From Sedimentisphaerales bacterium (GTDB lineage Bacteria; Planctomycetota; Phycisphaerae; Sedimentisphaerales; Anaerobacaceae): 64,000 nt of DNA. A program made the position numbers and the translations under genes. The stretch is from positions 1 to 64,000 of the forward strand of contig JAFGGH010000083.1 in NCBI GenBank assembly GCA_016930645.1. Reading direction: 5' to 3'. This document shows, piece by piece, positions 1-23,420 of this stretch. Numbering within the stretch: position 1 is the stretch's first letter; every line of letters starts with the position of its first letter. The notes under the pieces were generated by a model. It was not told the DNA's origin and ran no database searches. It saw only the letters and a list, made by a program, of their open reading frames with translations.

Positions 1-434
1 AAAATTCGGCCTGAAGTGGTCTCTGGTGAATTGTCTTTTACTGTTAGTTATCAATATAACATAAAATTATGTTTTGTCAACAGAAAATTCAGGGAAAATT
101 TGAAAATTTTTTCGTATAGCACAAAAATAGTGGATTCTGGGCTAAAAATGGGGATTTGAAAGGATAAATACTTAGACAAGATAACAGGAAAAACTGGATT
201 ATTTACTAACCAAGAAGAACACGAAGGAATTTTCGTGGATTTTGAGCTAATAATGGCAATTTTGAAAAAAACGAACACAATTCAAACCCAAACGAACCCA
301 ATCTAAAGCCAATCTTGTCCGCCGCAGTTTACTCGCCTTTTACCCGCCTCTTGCGGGCAGGCGGGAAAACCCAATTTTAGACTCAAAAACAAAGCTTTGA
401 CTATTAGGTGAATTTGAATATAATCCCTTAATAA

Positions 435-16033: not shown

Positions 16034-16068
16034 TAAAAAAAAGGCCGGGGGTTAATCATTCCGGCCTT
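16034..16068 (-). terminator. Rho-independent terminator after the ECF module 1 genes
   Basis: AAGGCCGG (16041-16048) / CCGGCCTT (16061-16068), followed on the minus strand by a T tract. Confidence 0.8.
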
Positions 16069-16082
16069 ATTAGCATATCACT

Positions 16083-16132: not shown

Positions 16133-17179
16133 TTATTTGTTGAAAGCTGATATATCCAGCTCTGTGTAGTCATCGGGTATATTCGGGATAAAGATGCTGT
16201 CATCAAATTCGGCACCCCATTCAATACTGCTTGTTTCGGATTTAGTGTGAACATCAGTAAAGTTCGTCAATGGGCCTTTTTTCATTATAAAATCAGCTTC
16301 AACTTTAATCGGTAGTTTTGTTTCGACATCTACCCAGAGCCGCCATGTATTATCGCCGATAGGGAACATTCCTTTGCTGACTTTCGCCATTTCGGCCATA
16401 GCTTTTGGATTTACGGTTTCGAAGCCTTCCGCCTTTCTGCCGTTAATTTCTTTTTGGCCGAGCCTGACGGGATTCGATTCCGATACTATCCATTCGACAT
16501 AACCTTTTGCATTGAAACCTTCCTGCAGCTCAAGGGCGGTATTATCAAGTGGAATGATAAAATATTTTTTAGGCGGATGCAGGACGGTAATAATCTGCTG
16601 CTTTTCCTTGAGAAGATAAACGGTTGTTATAAGGTTGCCGTTTTGGTCGTATTGCTCTTCGACGGCACCGTGTTCGGTAGAGACATATTTCTTCACATCG
16701 GTAATCATAAAAGGCTGGTCTTGCCCGACAACGGTAATAATGCGATTTTCACGCTGAATAATCTTGTCGAATTGTTTGACTTTTTCAACCACGTCAGCGA
16801 GGACGACCGACGTCGGTCCGACGAAGAGGCTGAATATAACCGCAGCTACGAGTATTACCGCTGCTGCGGTTGCGAGTTTTGTGATTTTACTGTTCATAAT
16901 TATTCTCCATATCTGTATGTGCCGGTAATCCCGGCGAGATTGTTTTAGTTTTTGGTTTTGCCGGCGGATAATTCTGTCAGCAACCTTGTTTTCCAGAGCT
17001 ACCTGTTTGAATTGCTCGCTGCTTTCTTTAAGGTTCGCTTGAAGCTCGTTTAGCTCATTAAGCTCAGCCTGGCAGCCGGTACATTTAGCCAGGTGCTCTT
17101 GAATTTGTTTTTCCTGATTATCTTCAAGAAGGCCTTCGGTGTATTCAACGAGTTTTTCTTTACATTCAGCGCAGTTCAT
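16133..17179 (-). CDS. Zinc-finger (zf-HC2) anti-sigma-like protein fused to a TM segment and an extracytoplasmic LolA/DUF-like sensor domain
   Basis: N-term 'MNCAECKEKLVEYTEGLLEDNQEKQIQEHLAKCTGC'; TM after 'WRIIMNSKITKLATAAAVILVAAVIFSLFVG'; 4 nt overlap with the upstream sigma gene. Confidence 0.82.
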   Translation of the reverse strand: MNCAECKEKLVEYTEGLLEDNQEKQIQEHLAKCTGCQAELNELNELQANLKESSEQFKQVALENKVADRIIRRQNQKLKQSRRDYRHIQIWRIIMNSKITKLATAAAVILVAAVIFSLFVGPTSVVLADVVEKVKQFDKIIQRENRIITVVGQDQPFMITDVKKYVSTEHGAVEEQYDQNGNLITTVYLLKEKQQIITVLHPPKKYFIIPLDNTALELQEGFNAKGYVEWIVSESNPVRLGQKEINGRKAEGFETVNPKAMAEMAKVSKGMFPIGDNTWRLWVDVETKLPIKVEADFIMKKGPLTNFTDVHTKSETSSIEWGAEFDDSIFIPNIPDDYTELDISAFNK

Positions 17180-17703
17180 TTTTGCACCTCATTATTTTGT
17201 TTCCGCAGAATTTCGCGTAGTTGTGAATAAGCCCTTGAGAGTGTTTTAGTAACCGTACCGAGACGCATATCAAGGATTTGAGCGATTTCCTTACAGGAAC
17301 GTCCTGCGTAAAACCTGAGCAGTATTACTTCCCTGTAGCCGGCCGGCAGCAGGGCGATTGCCTGTTCCATTTCGAAGTCTCCTGATGGTTCGGCCTCTGT
17401 TACTTGTAGAGTTTGAGGCTCAGGAATTGGTTTGAAGCGGCTTTTATTTCTGGTTTGCTCCTTGGCTACCCTGTCAGCAATACCTATAAGCCAGGAATTA
17501 AAGCTCTGATGCTTTTTCAGGTTGTTCAGGGCAAAATATGCCCGGACAAAGGTCTCCTGAGCTGCTTCTTCGGCGTCATTTTTGTTTCGGAGCTTACCTG
17601 CCAAATAGGCCGTTACAGGCCATTGATGCTTTATTACAAGATGCCGAAAATCATCGGGATGGCCGTCCAAACACCGCTCTATATGATATTTGTCGCTTTG
17701 CAC
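17176..17703 (-). CDS. ECF-type RNA polymerase sigma factor
   Basis: 'AEEAAQETFVRAYFALNNLKKHQSFNSWLIGIADR' (region 2) and 'LPAGYREVILLRFYAGRSCKEIAQILDMRLGTVTKTLSRAYSQLRE' (region 4). Confidence 0.93.
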   Translation of the reverse strand: MQSDKYHIERCLDGHPDDFRHLVIKHQWPVTAYLAGKLRNKNDAEEAAQETFVRAYFALNNLKKHQSFNSWLIGIADRVAKEQTRNKSRFKPIPEPQTLQVTEAEPSGDFEMEQAIALLPAGYREVILLRFYAGRSCKEIAQILDMRLGTVTKTLSRAYSQLREILRKQNNEVQK

Positions 17704-17783
17704 TTTTCTACCTCAAGAACAATAAGGAGAACCGGTTTCTCACTATATAGTGCAGTAAGCGGACATTTTGCGACAGAAAAAAT

Positions 17784-17815
17784 AAAAAAAGGCCGGTTTT
17801 GCTAAACCGGCCTTT
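17784..17815 (-). terminator. Rho-independent terminator after the ECF module 2 genes
   Basis: AAAGGCCGGTTT (17788-17799) tgct AAACCGGCCTTT (17804-17815) with a T tract on the minus strand. Confidence 0.85.
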
Positions 17816-17838
17816 AAGGATAATTATATCAACACCTC

Positions 17839-19461
17839 TCAGATTCCGCCGTCAAACTGCCAGCGGTGCGCTTCGTTGTCATTTCGAATCGCCAGGTTGT
17901 GTTTTTTGACTCCGCCCGGCACACGGCATCTCACAAAGTAAGCCGAATTCTCTTCCGACCAGACAGATTTCCCTATTACTTCACAAAATGGTTGTTCTTC
18001 CTTTGGTTGGCCGCGTTTTGTCCACTCTTCGAAGTCATGTTTTAGTTCTTCCACAAAAGAATCCGGCGCGAATTTTCGCATTTCATCCCAGTCCTGCCTT
18101 GAAAAGGCCTCATTGAATGCCTTCACTGCTTCATCCGGAGACATCTTGGCGTATGTATCGTTATCCGGCAGGACCTCCGGCTCGTTCGACCATTTCATTT
18201 CGCGAAGAAGTCGTAGTTTAGAGTCACACATTCCCGTTATGACTAACCGTCCCGCAGCATTTGTTTTGGATAGCCGCAAGTTGAATTTCTGCGACGGAAT
18301 CCTTATCTCGTATGGTATAAACCAGCCTCTATAGCCGCCGGATTTGAATGGCTCGCCGATGCTGATAATCTCCAGTCCGCCGAGGTATTCCTTTATTTGC
18401 TCGTCAATGCTTGAAGCACCCCAGAATTTCAAGACTTCATCCCAGTTTTCCTCTGCGCATGCCTGAAATAAAGCCGCGGCGACCTCTTTTGGTGTCATGT
18501 TTTCATATTTCTCATTATCCGGCAGTATTTGCGGCTCCGTGTGCCAAATCATATCTTCCGGCAAGTCGAGAGCGAAAACGCTGCCGGGAATTTCTGTATT
18601 GTATTCGATGTCCGTGACCTCAAAGACCAGCACATCATTATCTTTGGTGTACACGAACACCTGGAAACTTTCCAATAAATTCGTTTCTGTATCAAAGCGG
18701 TAAACTTTCAGGTGGTCGGAGTCCGAGATGAACTGGTTTCGAAGATAATCATTCTCAGCAACGTCGGTTGTTACGTCAACCTCGAGTACAATCTTGTCCC
18801 TGCCTTCAATGTCCGTGTGTTGGATATGAATTTGGCGGTCCGGATTGTCCTTCGCGTTTTGCATCTCACTGTCCAACAGCTCGCTTACGTTTAATAATCG
18901 GCCCATCCATGAGTCAAAACAGCCTAAAGGCCAGGTTTCTTCTTTAATAACCCCGTGATTGGGGCGTATTAACATAGTGGTGCTTTGCCCATCCATAAGC
19001 AAAACCCGTCCGGGTTTTTCTACACGCCACCGTACCAGCCCGTTTTCGTCTGTCTGTTTCCACATCTCAATAGGCACAAAATCATAATCCAGGCCAATCA
19101 GTGAAAAGTTATCACTCGGTAATGTACGCATACGAGCATTCATGTGTACTGACCATATATCAGATACCGCATCAATTGCATCTTGCAAAACCTGAGCATA
19201 GGCTGTCGGTACGGATTGTTCTATAAAAGTAATGCCAATGACTGCTGCGATTACTATCGTTGCAGCGGCGGCGAGTTTTGTTATTTTACTTTTCATAATT
19301 ATTCTCCATATATTTGGCTCAGGCTCAATGTGTCTGTGTTCTGATATTTGCTTATGGGCCTGGAGCAATTGGTTTAGAATTTTCTCGTCAGCATCGATGT
19401 TTGTGCCGACCTCAGCTTTTTTGAAAAACCTTTTTATATCATCCGCGCGTTTCATAATCAT
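17839..19461 (-). CDS. ECF-linked membrane protein with a large extracytoplasmic region; duplicated 'EPxxLPDNxxYxxMxPxEAxxxF' segments
   Basis: TM after 'NIWRIIMKSKITKLAAAATIVIAAVIG'; internal repeats 'TEPQILPDNEKYENMTPKEVAAALFQA' and 'NEPEVLPDNDTYAKMSPDEAVKAFNEA'. Confidence 0.78.
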   Translation of the reverse strand: MIMKRADDIKRFFKKAEVGTNIDADEKILNQLLQAHKQISEHRHIEPEPNIWRIIMKSKITKLAAAATIVIAAVIGITFIEQSVPTAYAQVLQDAIDAVSDIWSVHMNARMRTLPSDNFSLIGLDYDFVPIEMWKQTDENGLVRWRVEKPGRVLLMDGQSTTMLIRPNHGVIKEETWPLGCFDSWMGRLLNVSELLDSEMQNAKDNPDRQIHIQHTDIEGRDKIVLEVDVTTDVAENDYLRNQFISDSDHLKVYRFDTETNLLESFQVFVYTKDNDVLVFEVTDIEYNTEIPGSVFALDLPEDMIWHTEPQILPDNEKYENMTPKEVAAALFQACAEENWDEVLKFWGASSIDEQIKEYLGGLEIISIGEPFKSGGYRGWFIPYEIRIPSQKFNLRLSKTNAAGRLVITGMCDSKLRLLREMKWSNEPEVLPDNDTYAKMSPDEAVKAFNEAFSRQDWDEMRKFAPDSFVEELKHDFEEWTKRGQPKEEQPFCEVIGKSVWSEENSAYFVRCRVPGGVKKHNLAIRNDNEAHRWQFDGGI

Positions 19462-20003
19462 ATTTTTCCATTCAAAATCGACCGCAGTCTGTCAATTCCA
19501 TATCGATAACGGCCTTTGACTGTGTTAGCTGAAACACTCTGAATTATGGCTATCTTTTTGTAGGCCATATTGTTTTCTATTCTCAGGGCTACTACTTCGC
19601 GTTGCTCATCCGGTAACTGAGCCATAGCTGAGCTTAGAAACTTCAATTGTTCGCTGAGTATCGCCCATTGCTCAGGCCTTTTTTCACTGGAGGCTGTGCA
19701 GTCGTTTTCGTTCAGTTGCGATGTTCTGTGCCTGGCTGTGTTACGCCTGATATTGCGAATCCGGTTTACAACGCTCGTAGCAAGATAACTTTTTAGACTG
19801 CCGTGCAATTCCATCCGGCCAATCGACTTGGTAAAACTCAGGAAGACATCGTGAACGCAATCTTCGGCGATATATACATCATTAGTCAATACAACACCCA
19901 GTTTTAGAAGCTGGAGTCTGTACTTGTCGTAAATCCCGCGCAGGGCATCGGAGTCGCCGTTTTTGAACTTTTTAATCAACAATCTGTCTTCAAGAACTTT
20001 CAT
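19458..20003 (-). CDS. ECF-type RNA polymerase sigma factor
   Basis: 'VYIAEDCVHDVFLSFTKSIGRMELHGSLKSYLATSVVNRIRNIRR' and 'LPDEQREVVALRIENNMAYKKIAIIQSVSANTVKGRYRYGIDRLR'. Confidence 0.92.
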   Translation of the reverse strand: MKVLEDRLLIKKFKNGDSDALRGIYDKYRLQLLKLGVVLTNDVYIAEDCVHDVFLSFTKSIGRMELHGSLKSYLATSVVNRIRNIRRNTARHRTSQLNENDCTASSEKRPEQWAILSEQLKFLSSAMAQLPDEQREVVALRIENNMAYKKIAIIQSVSANTVKGRYRYGIDRLRSILNGKI

Positions 20004-20249: not shown

Positions 20250-23200
20250 CTAATATTTTTTCAGGTCCCAGTGATTGGCAAGGCGGTCGGCTTGGTCTTT
20301 GGTGAGTTGAATAACTGCGCCGTGCTTTGGTGAAGAGAAATTGGTCGTTTTCATGACGCCTTCATTAAAGTGACCAAGATCTTCGAAGGTAACAAAATCG
20401 CTGGTTTGGCAAAAACCAAAATTATGAGGCCTGATACTGAAAATGTCATACATCAGCACCCATTTGTCTTTGCCGATACGCTTGAAGACATTTGGAGCTT
20501 CGCAGGCACCCGGCTCGACATCAATCCATTGCGACTGGTATTCATAGCCCTTGTTGATATGGTCGGAAAAGGCCAACTTAATACCGCCTGGTCTTCCCTG
20601 TGCGACATACATCATACAATAACGCCCATCCGGCAGGGGGGTAATATCGGCATCGAGAACCTGGATTTCCGGATTCGGATATTCAAACAGCAGCTTCGGC
20701 AATGTGGTCAGTTTCGTAAAATCGTTATCGGTATAGGCATAATACAGTTTCGTGCGTCCGTGGGCGATGCGCATGGTAAAATACAACATCATCTTGTCCG
20801 CCTCGGGGTCGTAGATTGTCTGCGGAGCCCAGGCACAGCCCATTTCTTTTAATTCAGAAAAGGCCTCAGTCAGCAGTACGTTACTGTGCGTCCAGTTTAT
20901 CAGGTCAAACGACTTCATCAGCACAAACCCGCGATTGTTACCCCAGTCATATTTCGCCGCATCCCGCTCCCACTGGGTATCTCGGTAGCCGGCTCGTTGG
21001 GCGAATATATGCAAATCGGTCATTGCCATATAAAACGCGCCATCCGGTCCGCGGGTGATGTGCGGGTCGCGAATACCTTTTTGCATTGCAATCTTATGAC
21101 CTTCTATGATCGGGTTGTTATCATTGAGGGCGGTAAAAGTGTAACCATCAGAACTCAGTGCCATGTGCAGACTGTGGTCTGAGTCACTGAAATAAACCAT
21201 CAGATAAGCCGCCATATCTTTTTCCATTGGCATTGTGCAGATGATAGGGGCGATGCCTTCAAGCGTCGGCTGGACGCGGATAATTTTTCCGGATTCGTCA
21301 AATGTCAGCTTGTCGATACAGGTTTCGCGATGATAGCCTGCTGAACGACCCATACGGATTCCCTTAGGATAGGTGAAGCGATGATAAACGATGTACCATT
21401 CGTCTTCACCGGGGACCTGGATTGTAGAATTATGGCCGGTGGCATAGATGCCGGCTTTTGCATCCTTTGCAATTACGAGGTTATCTGCAGGTATATCCAG
21501 CGGTCCGGTCGGGGTCGGAGCAATGGCATAACGAACTCGGTAGTTTTCACTGCGTGTATCATCTTCCGACCAGAGGATATAGTATTTGCCATTGCGATAA
21601 AAGACGTGCGCCCCTTCACGGAAGGTGCGATCCGGAGTTATGACCCTGATTGTGCTTTGATTGATAGACACCATATCGTCATTCAATTCAGCGACCGCCA
21701 TGTATCCATTGCCCCAGTAAAGGTAGCTTTTATTGGTCTTCGGGTCGGTGAAAACATCGGGGTCGATTTGCTGGCCGCCGTTGACGCCCGGAGGGAAAGA
21801 ATCAATGAGCGGTTTGCCGCTGTCGGTGAACGGCCCGGTCGGACTGTCAGAAACGGCAACTCCGATTTTTTGAGCTGCGGTGAAGTAGTAGAAGTATTTG
21901 TATTGGCCGTCTATCTTCTTTTCGGTGATGCAGGGTGCCCACGCATTGCGGTCGGCCCAGCTTACATCTTTTTTAAGGTCGAGAATGACGCCTTGGTCTT
22001 TCCAGTCAACGAGGTTGTCGGAGGAGAAGGCCTTGAAGTATGTTCCCGACCAGCTTGTAAAGCCGTCGCTGGTGGGATAAATGTAGTACTTTGCGGTTTT
22101 TTCGGAATAGATAATGTCAGGGTCGGCGTAGTAGCCATCGAGTACCGGATTATGGTCCTCGGTTGCTGTTACTTTAAGGACAATAGGCTTTTGTTCAGCG
22201 ATGTCGATGGAATATTCGACCGGGCCTTTGGAGAAATCCTGTTTGCCTTTTGGTGTGATGTTTGCGCCGGCAGAGGCCTCGAATTTCGGGTCCAGCCTGG
22301 TCAAATCCGTTCCGCGTTTGACCGACAGGCGAATTGTTCCTTTTTCCCTGTCGATCGCAACATTGCGTGTCTTTACCGATTCACTGGTCGCTTTAAACGA
22401 AAGATTCTCCAGCGTGCCCCACTTGTTCACCAGACGCATCAGCTCTTTGTTGGTAATCGGTACCACGGTTCCGTGACGCGGATGAAAGTCCATTGTGATT
22501 TCATTATCAATCACTTCGAAGTGTAATAAATCCGAACTGCGGGTGAACTGATAACGCCCTCTCGTATAAACGTCATACATCAGAATCCAGTCGTCGCTGT
22601 TATTGAGCTTGAATATACAGGAACCTTCCACCCTATCACGTGACCGGTCTATCCGCCGGTCGCTGTGGAGCTTGTATCCTTCCGTCAGCTTATCGGAAAT
22701 CGCCAGTTTGATACCCGGGTCGCCGTCCTCGGCTTTGTGAAACAGGTAGTACCTGCCGTCCTTATAGATGATGTCGCCGTCGATACAGGCTTTGGTATTA
22801 CTTTCAGCAGGCGGGAAATAAAGCTGTTTTGGCGCGGCTTCGAATCCGGTGAAATGTTCGTTGGCATAAGCGTAATAGATTTTATCAGGGTCATCACCTT
22901 GTTTCATAGAGAAATAGACCATATATTTGCCCGTTTTTTCATCGTAGATGGTTTGCGGCGCCCATACACGAGAAACCTTACCAAACTTTTGGGGATAGGT
23001 TTCGGGAATGTTCACTGCCGATGAAGTCCAGTTGATCAGATCGGTTGATTTCAGCATAACCATCGCATAGTTTCTCCAGCCCATCTTCGGAACATACAGG
23101 TCGGTTACGACCATATAGAAGGTTTTACCGTCGGCACATCGCAGGATGTGCGGGTCACGGACGCCGCCTGAGGTGCTGATGTCTTTGGAGTCTATAATCG

Positions 23201-23420
23201 GTTTATTGTTGTTCAGGGCTTTATAGTTGAATCCATCCTCGCTTATGGCGAAATGTATCTGCTCCTGCCCCGGTCCATTGCCGGTGAAATAGGCGAACAA
23301 ATAAGCTGAGTATTCTTTTTCCGGTGCACAGGAAGCTATGTTAGCGGCGGCCACCAAAATCGAAATGGTCATTAATGCGATAAAAACCGGTCTTTGTAAT
23401 TTTCTGAATAAGTTGTTCAT
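20250..23420 (-). CDS. Secreted/lipoprotein multi-domain glycoside hydrolase, three tandem GH43-like five-bladed propellers
   Basis: GH43-like segments start at 'EYSAYLFAYFTGNGPGQEQIHFAISEDGF', 'NPVLDGYYADPDIIYSEKTAKYYIYPTSDG' and 'MAAYLMVYFSDSDHSLHMALSSDGYTF'; signal peptide; SD ggaga before the ATG. Confidence 0.9.
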   Translation of the reverse strand: MNNLFRKLQRPVFIALMTISILVAAANIASCAPEKEYSAYLFAYFTGNGPGQEQIHFAISEDGFNYKALNNNKPIIDSKDISTSGGVRDPHILRCADGKTFYMVVTDLYVPKMGWRNYAMVMLKSTDLINWTSSAVNIPETYPQKFGKVSRVWAPQTIYDEKTGKYMVYFSMKQGDDPDKIYYAYANEHFTGFEAAPKQLYFPPAESNTKACIDGDIIYKDGRYYLFHKAEDGDPGIKLAISDKLTEGYKLHSDRRIDRSRDRVEGSCIFKLNNSDDWILMYDVYTRGRYQFTRSSDLLHFEVIDNEITMDFHPRHGTVVPITNKELMRLVNKWGTLENLSFKATSESVKTRNVAIDREKGTIRLSVKRGTDLTRLDPKFEASAGANITPKGKQDFSKGPVEYSIDIAEQKPIVLKVTATEDHNPVLDGYYADPDIIYSEKTAKYYIYPTSDGFTSWSGTYFKAFSSDNLVDWKDQGVILDLKKDVSWADRNAWAPCITEKKIDGQYKYFYYFTAAQKIGVAVSDSPTGPFTDSGKPLIDSFPPGVNGGQQIDPDVFTDPKTNKSYLYWGNGYMAVAELNDDMVSINQSTIRVITPDRTFREGAHVFYRNGKYYILWSEDDTRSENYRVRYAIAPTPTGPLDIPADNLVIAKDAKAGIYATGHNSTIQVPGEDEWYIVYHRFTYPKGIRMGRSAGYHRETCIDKLTFDESGKIIRVQPTLEGIAPIICTMPMEKDMAAYLMVYFSDSDHSLHMALSSDGYTFTALNDNNPIIEGHKIAMQKGIRDPHITRGPDGAFYMAMTDLHIFAQRAGYRDTQWERDAAKYDWGNNRGFVLMKSFDLINWTHSNVLLTEAFSELKEMGCAWAPQTIYDPEADKMMLYFTMRIAHGRTKLYYAYTDNDFTKLTTLPKLLFEYPNPEIQVLDADITPLPDGRYCMMYVAQGRPGGIKLAFSDHINKGYEYQSQWIDVEPGACEAPNVFKRIGKDKWVLMYDIFSIRPHNFGFCQTSDFVTFEDLGHFNEGVMKTTNFSSPKHGAVIQLTKDQADRLANHWDLKKY

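Follow-up and report, generated by a model that had tools for sequence, protein, structure and literature searches.

A probable internal start in an anti-sigma sensor gene

Does one open reading frame (ORF) of a planctomycete anti-sigma gene encode one protein or two? The question is raised by a stretch of 64,000 nucleotides from a Sedimentisphaerales bacterium (contig JAFGGH010000083.1, positions 1 to 64,000; hereafter the window), part of a 2.18-Mb genome in 103 contigs. On its minus strand, the ORF 16133..17179 encodes a zf-HC2 sensor protein (P0001), and within it the sequence ATATGGAGAATAATTATGAAC (16912..16892) places a Shine-Dalgarno (SD) tetramer, GGAG, 7 nt before an ATG that is codon 95 of the same frame. 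A sequence-only reading of this stretch had drawn attention to the site and proposed two isoforms from one ORF, one tethering the sigma factor and one not. The SD, its spacing and the frame are as that reading gave them, and Met95 does lie directly before the transmembrane (TM) helix (about residues 100 to 119), but it does not follow just after the zinc finger, which ends about 57 residues earlier. Our analysis indicates that the gene probably gives rise to two products by way of a selected internal start: a long sensor that acts as an anti-sigma factor and a shorter one that is blind to sigma.

Taken by itself, a single site of this kind is unremarkable, and only its conservation gives it meaning. 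Among the 43 plausible genes of the window, GGAG is found at a similar distance 5' of 8 of 380 internal in-frame ATGs, so the weight of the single site rests on conservation. The claim that a paralogous module carries the same 20-mer was borne out, as the neighboring sensor ORF, P0002, contains the 21-mer with one mismatch (20 of 21 bases, 19311..19291), while dinucleotide shuffles give 0 expected matches.

The element recurs widely among relatives. A 40-residue query around the motif matched in 46 of 60 related genomes, with up to 30 matches in one genome, and a class-wide search matched in 97 of 397 genomes, mostly of the same family and order. A search of 84,980 species with the exact DNA pattern gave 98 stretches, and the titled records listed for it are all planctomycete (named as Phycisphaerae, Sedimentisphaerales or Planctomycetota metagenome-assembled genome) except for one "uncultured bacterium."

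Conservation of the internal start at the nucleotide level

Codon statistics were gathered from 153 nonredundant copies whose loci had been picked by protein similarity only and which align without gaps around the motif; the loci found with the DNA pattern (L142 to L171) were excluded because they had been picked by nucleotide sequence. GGAG occupies positions -11 to -8 in 140 of the 153 copies, and the start codon is kept in 148 (ATG in 146, GTG in 2) and lost in 5, with the reservation that the hidden Markov model was trained on copies with the Trp and Met of the W-R-x-I-M motif, so that the conservation of these two residues may be somewhat overstated. In the copies without a start codon (L055, L062, L098, L115, and L213), the internal ATG has become CTT, CTA, or ATA, and L055 lacks GGAG as well (TGGCGA).

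The alignment of homologues that the sequence-only reading had proposed, with free synonymous variation as the outcome that would speak against it, showed the opposite of free variation. Among the first 78 copies, the Arg that follows the Trp is encoded by AGA in 67 and by AGG in 1, whereas among all Arg codons of these genes AGA makes up 20% and AGG 14.5%, and Trp-Arg pairs elsewhere in the same loci have AGA in 27% and AGG in 16%. In 89 genomes of the family, a pattern that admits either TGGAGN or TGGCGN found a single TGGCG, all other matches being TGGAG; the reversed-pattern control found no match in these genomes, and a pattern with Ser TCN after the Trp gave 0 matches. GGAG is held even when the residue changes. 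Another codon takes the place of the Trp codon in 31 copies, namely AGG (18 copies), CGG (2), GGG (8, accounting for all 8 Gly), TTG (1), and two single cases (Cys and Met), such that the first, residue-changing base varies while the GG stays. On a tree of 142 rows built from the neighboring sigma factors, the first base of the Trp codon changes 21 times and its two G's 2 times and 1 time, the following A and G change 4 and 6 times, and other nearby third positions change 11 to 52 times.

The codons on either side of the internal ATG tell a similar story. Codons 2 to 7 after the internal ATG prefer A-ending forms (AAA, AGT/AGC, AGA or CCA, ATA, ACA, and AAA), very unlike the codon usage of these genes as a whole, and A-rich early codons are typical of true gene starts. 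Where Ile stands just before the ATG, its codon is almost never ATA (1 of 69 Ile). That the Ser at codon 3 is always AGY (61 of 61) was left out of the evidence because TCN and AGY lie two changes apart. The 16S rRNA of relatives ends in CCTCCTTTCT, also given as GGATCACCTCCTTTCT, and thus has an intact anti-SD (CCTCC).

Chance as the sole cause is rejected for the family, though it would suffice for one site, and so is protein-level conservation of W-R-x-I-M, since the synonymous and the residue-changing patterns both implicate the nucleotides. These patterns show selection at the nucleotide level that preserves the internal SD and ATG, in a frame that also stays open, and initiation by ribosomes at the internal ATG is predicted with good support. 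The SD is conserved beyond what the protein requires, one of the marks by which a gene of the CheA type, with N-terminal proteoforms, would be recognized. Internal SD sequences are generally depleted from coding regions (PMC5100845), and it is for this reason that the sensor family stands out.

RNA structure around the internal start

Compared with synonymous controls, positions -36 to -31 and -24 to -19 are more paired, while the loop between them and the SD itself are more open. The segment from -39 to -16 is more stable than the controls across all copies, including those that lack the commonest TCGGC stem, and the stretch from -60 to -37 shows no stability effect against the same controls. 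Of the 153 copies, 74 have a stem at least 5 bp long, compared with 12 to 25 in ten synonymous resamplings, figures that overstate independence, as the copies are related by descent. At one register lie 43 of these 74, and the stem sequences are of 56 distinct kinds, for example TCGGCT/AGCCGA, CCGACAGT/ACTGTCGG, AGCACT/AGTGCT, and TCGCCTT/AAGGCGA. Arms that differ in sequence and still pair are hard to explain other than as a hairpin that has been kept. After the internal ATG, a second, weaker stem at +21 to +44 (codons GCC GCT GCG GCG) exceeds the synonymous controls family-wide, and hairpins may thus lie both before and after the start region. Rfam has no family match over the element, and nearby it gave only sub-threshold chance matches.

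Retention of the long form and exchange of N-terminal modules

The upstream part of the frame is kept along with the internal start, being open in the copies selected by protein similarity and in 96 of 97 copies of the DNA-pattern set. An extracytoplasmic function (ECF) sigma factor gene lies upstream in 139 of the 140 copies that have at least 900 nt of upstream sequence, and in 83 of 147 copies, including both in the window, the nearest long-form start overlaps the sigma stop as ATGA, often with an SD of its own. Of 98 distinct elements in the DNA-pattern set, 96 have at least 45 open codons upstream, one is at a contig end, and the last is L082 (1562..2305). This sole copy of the 140 without a sigma gene is a standalone gene with an intergenic region upstream and no N-terminal anti-sigma segment; it starts exactly at AAGGAGAACGATTATGAAAAGC, with the same hairpin, SD, and ATG, and its 247-amino-acid product has an F5/8-type C-terminal domain (a weak Pfam match). 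In L315 (about 150..220), at a contig end, an in-frame stop lies 11 codons 5' of the internal start; this may be a second standalone gene or else a long form that has been disrupted, and the segment upstream of it has no clear match.

What precedes the internal Met differs between copies. Among 147 relatives, 124 have an N terminus of about 53 amino acids without a zinc motif and 18 have one of the zf-HC2 type, of about 92 to 117 amino acids; the HxxxCxxC motif, present in P0001 as HLAKCTGC, occurs in 17 of the 147 N termini and is thus absent from most relatives. The sensor and element of P0001, with its 94-amino-acid zf-HC2 N terminus, recur in L054 (phmmer E value of 9e-132 for the sensor; 64% identity in the alignment), which has a 52-amino-acid, nonzinc N terminus. 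Because these two proteins share a sensor but not an N terminus, the element sits at a boundary at which N-terminal modules are exchanged.

For the segment of about 53 amino acids, neither Pfam nor NCBIfam gave a match in P0002 or in L054. In a profile comparison its last helix aligns with the end of the zf-HC2-type N termini, and the segment may be a short sigma-binding one of a kind not described before. Its recurring pattern is IExxIKxxxxxT...DxxIL.D.L.A.E.S (P0002 and L042 to L141).

On the other side of the boundary, the sensor domain of P0001 was modeled with good confidence, and Foldseek places it with LolA (E value of 8.3e-9; TMt of 0.60) and RseB (E value of 9.1e-8). A signal-peptidase-I-like pattern, [AVTS]-x-A-[DEQ]-V, follows the TM helix in 57% of copies, compared with 15% of shuffled ones, and lies about 35 residues from the internal Met. 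A protein begun at this Met thus reads like a secretory precursor with a putative cleavage site.

Weighing the explanations

Several observations weigh against a second product. About half of the copies lack the hairpin, and the window's own paralogue P0002 has no comparable stem. The internal SD is usually a 4-base match only, weaker than that of many long-form starts. Because five copies have lost the start codon, four of them with GGAG still in place, the internal start is not essential everywhere. In addition, the genomes named among the DNA-pattern matches are metagenome-assembled.

If no protein started at the ATG, GGAG could act as an elongation pause that slows ribosomes before the TM helix for membrane targeting. 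In favor of this, all copies have it directly 5' of the helix, and a slowing effect of internal SD-like sequences on ribosomes is possible (discussed in PMC5100845). A pause would need neither a start codon at a fixed 7-nt spacing, as found in 148 of 153 copies, nor A-rich codons after the ATG, nor an adjoining hairpin that leaves the SD open. Moreover, it is with this element that the standalone gene L082 begins. We therefore regard a pause as an unlikely account. A part in nucleic acid transactions other than initiation, as a recombination joint for module exchange or as the site of a GGA-binding RNA regulator such as CsrA, would fit the exchange of modules at the element and a conservation wider than the SD, which extends to the hairpin arms and to the GCC and GCG codons that follow. 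GGA is the core of CsrA sites. The constraint nevertheless has the pattern of a translation start (GGAG, spacing, ATG or GTG, A-rich codons), even a CsrA site would exert its effect on initiation, and the hairpin varies in sequence while its pairing is kept, unlike a sequence-specific recombination site; such roles seem to us very unlikely.

We give the least credence of all to a functionless relic, in which a sensor gene with its own start became fused to an upstream anti-sigma segment and its old ribosome binding site persists by ancestry. The sequence-only reading had offered a gene fusion as its alternative, and as history this is right: the element lies at the module boundary shown by P0001 and L054, with their common sensor and different N termini, and L082 has the unfused arrangement. 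As a description of the present state it fails, since genera and families alike have kept the signal. On the tree on which the two G's changed 1 to 2 times, third positions at a distance of a few codons changed 30 to 50 times, and residue changes that preserve GGAG are not expected in a decaying relic. The proposal of two isoforms from one ORF is, in contrast, well supported as a selected capacity, by the held GGAG, the kept ATG or GTG, the A-rich codons 2 to 7, and L082; that cells produce both isoforms is our inference from these features.

Proposed mechanism and comparison with known systems

Under the preferred explanation, that of one gene with two products, translation of the long form would begin at or near the sigma stop, often overlapping it, and yield a protein with an anti-sigma segment in the cytoplasm, a TM helix, and a sensor in the periplasm. 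Within the same ORF, another ribosome binding site (often a hairpin, then NGGAG, 7 nt, ATG, and A-rich codons) would allow ribosomes to start just 5' of the TM helix. The resulting short form would begin much like a signal peptide and retain the sensor domain in full, but it would lack the part that binds sigma. This short form might enter mixed complexes with the long form, or share or compete with it for a signal (ligand), partner, or protease, and such sharing or competition could set the threshold of sigma release, by analogy with RseB, a separate LolA-fold partner of RseA. It is on this analogy that we tentatively suggest that the short product, a sensor without the sigma-binding part, tunes the long one. 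Other roles are possible, such as that of an exported protein with its own task.

Pairs of bacterial N-terminal proteoforms, among them CheA-L/CheA-S, ClpA, IF2, CcmM, and SsaQ, have been reviewed (PMC11005335). They have in common with the present case a single ORF, an in-frame internal start, and a short form without the N-terminal functional domain. They differ in being single genes, whereas here the arrangement recurs in tens of paralogous sigma/anti-sigma pairs per genome, many with a covarying hairpin, and in that the short products are here predicted from sequence. The RseA-RseB system of Escherichia coli sigma-E likewise combines a TM anti-sigma factor with a LolA-fold periplasmic domain, and the P0001 sensor matches both RseB and LolA structures. 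In E. coli, however, RseB is a separate gene, while here the LolA-fold part is fused to the anti-sigma segment and is predicted to be made alone as well, from the internal start; the likeness to RseB in function, as the partner of a separate anti-sigma factor, is by analogy only. P0001 also resembles the zf-HC2/ASD class I membrane anti-sigma factors (RsiW, RslA, and the N-terminal domain of ChrR) in its zf-HC2 domain, the adjacent ECF sigma gene, and the TM segment after the domain, although its profile matches to the RsiW, RslA, and ChrR chains are weak, and binding and inhibition of the sigma factor by P0001 are predicted from this class. The family as a whole departs from the class, the zinc-free segment of about 53 amino acids standing in its place in 124 of 147 relatives. 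No earlier report of internal starts in anti-sigma factors was found in the literature searched, a search that most subscription journals lay outside.

We lean slightly toward the broader view that the hairpin, SD, ATG, A-rich start, and signal-sequence-like helix form a clade-wide cassette at a module boundary, present in tens of ECF anti-sigma sensors per genome, by which each sensor could be produced both with and without the part that binds sigma, and modules could be exchanged with both products kept, a systematic dual-output design for one-gene transmembrane signaling. Internal starts in bacteria are mostly single curiosities or entries of unclear function in profiling lists; here one is repeated throughout a family of paralogues, and its comparative signature, in which residues change and the SD stays, is unusually clean. 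If these starts are real, standard annotation overlooks a second product in hundreds of cases, and for these bacteria the models of ECF sigma control that assign one anti-sigma factor to each sigma factor are incomplete. The intact copies together with the five broken ones make up a natural series for probing the short form.

Features of the locus and neighboring genes

Coordinates of the two sigma/sensor pairs and of the elements discussed above, with the basis of each assignment.
Feature	Position	Strand	Basis
Internal Shine-Dalgarno GGAG	16908..16905	-	Sequence; nucleotide-level conservation; anti-SD CCTCC in relatives' 16S
Internal start codon ATG (Met95)	16897..16895	-	ATG in 146 and GTG in 2 of 153 copies
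Long form P0001, 348 amino acids: zf-HC2, internal Met95, TM, LolA/RseB-like periplasmic domain	16133..17179	-	
Predicted short form, 254 amino acids: TM/signal sequence and sensor domain, without zf-HC2	16133..16897	-	Initiation predicted
zf-HC2 zinc-finger anti-sigma domain, residues 3-37	17069..17173	-	PF13490, 25.4 bits against a cut-off of 22.2
TM/signal-sequence helix, residues 100-119, directly 3' of internal Met	16823..16882	-	Sequence; low-confidence model helix 100-119
Ala128 codon, end of signal-peptidase-I-like site VLA/D after TM	16796..16798	-	Pattern; putative cleavage
Periplasmic sensor domain, LolA/RseB fold, residues 127-330	16190..16801	-	AlphaFold model and Foldseek
ECF sigma factor gene; stop overlaps long-form start (ATGA)	17176..17703	-	Pfam Sigma70_r2/r4; sequence
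Hairpin GCCGG-gatta-CCGGC in coding sequence, upstream of SD	16921..16935	-	Fold of the window's zf-HC2 copy; family-wide excess over synonymous controls
Paralogous sensor ORF P0002, 540 amino acids, short nonzinc N-terminal segment, internal Met56	17839..19461	-	
Paralogue's internal GGAG	19304..19307	-	
Paralogue's internal ATG (Met56)	19294..19296	-	
ECF sigma gene of the paralogous pair; stop overlaps P0002 start	19458..20003	-	Pfam; sequence

Terminator-like GGCCGG...CCGGCC stems followed by T runs lie 3' of both sensor ORFs (17780..17820 and 16038..16070, minus strand), which suggests that the sigma/sensor pairs are transcribed as separate units. Adjoining the two pairs, a 1,056-amino-acid protein with GH43- and GH32-type domains is encoded at 20250..23420 on the minus strand.
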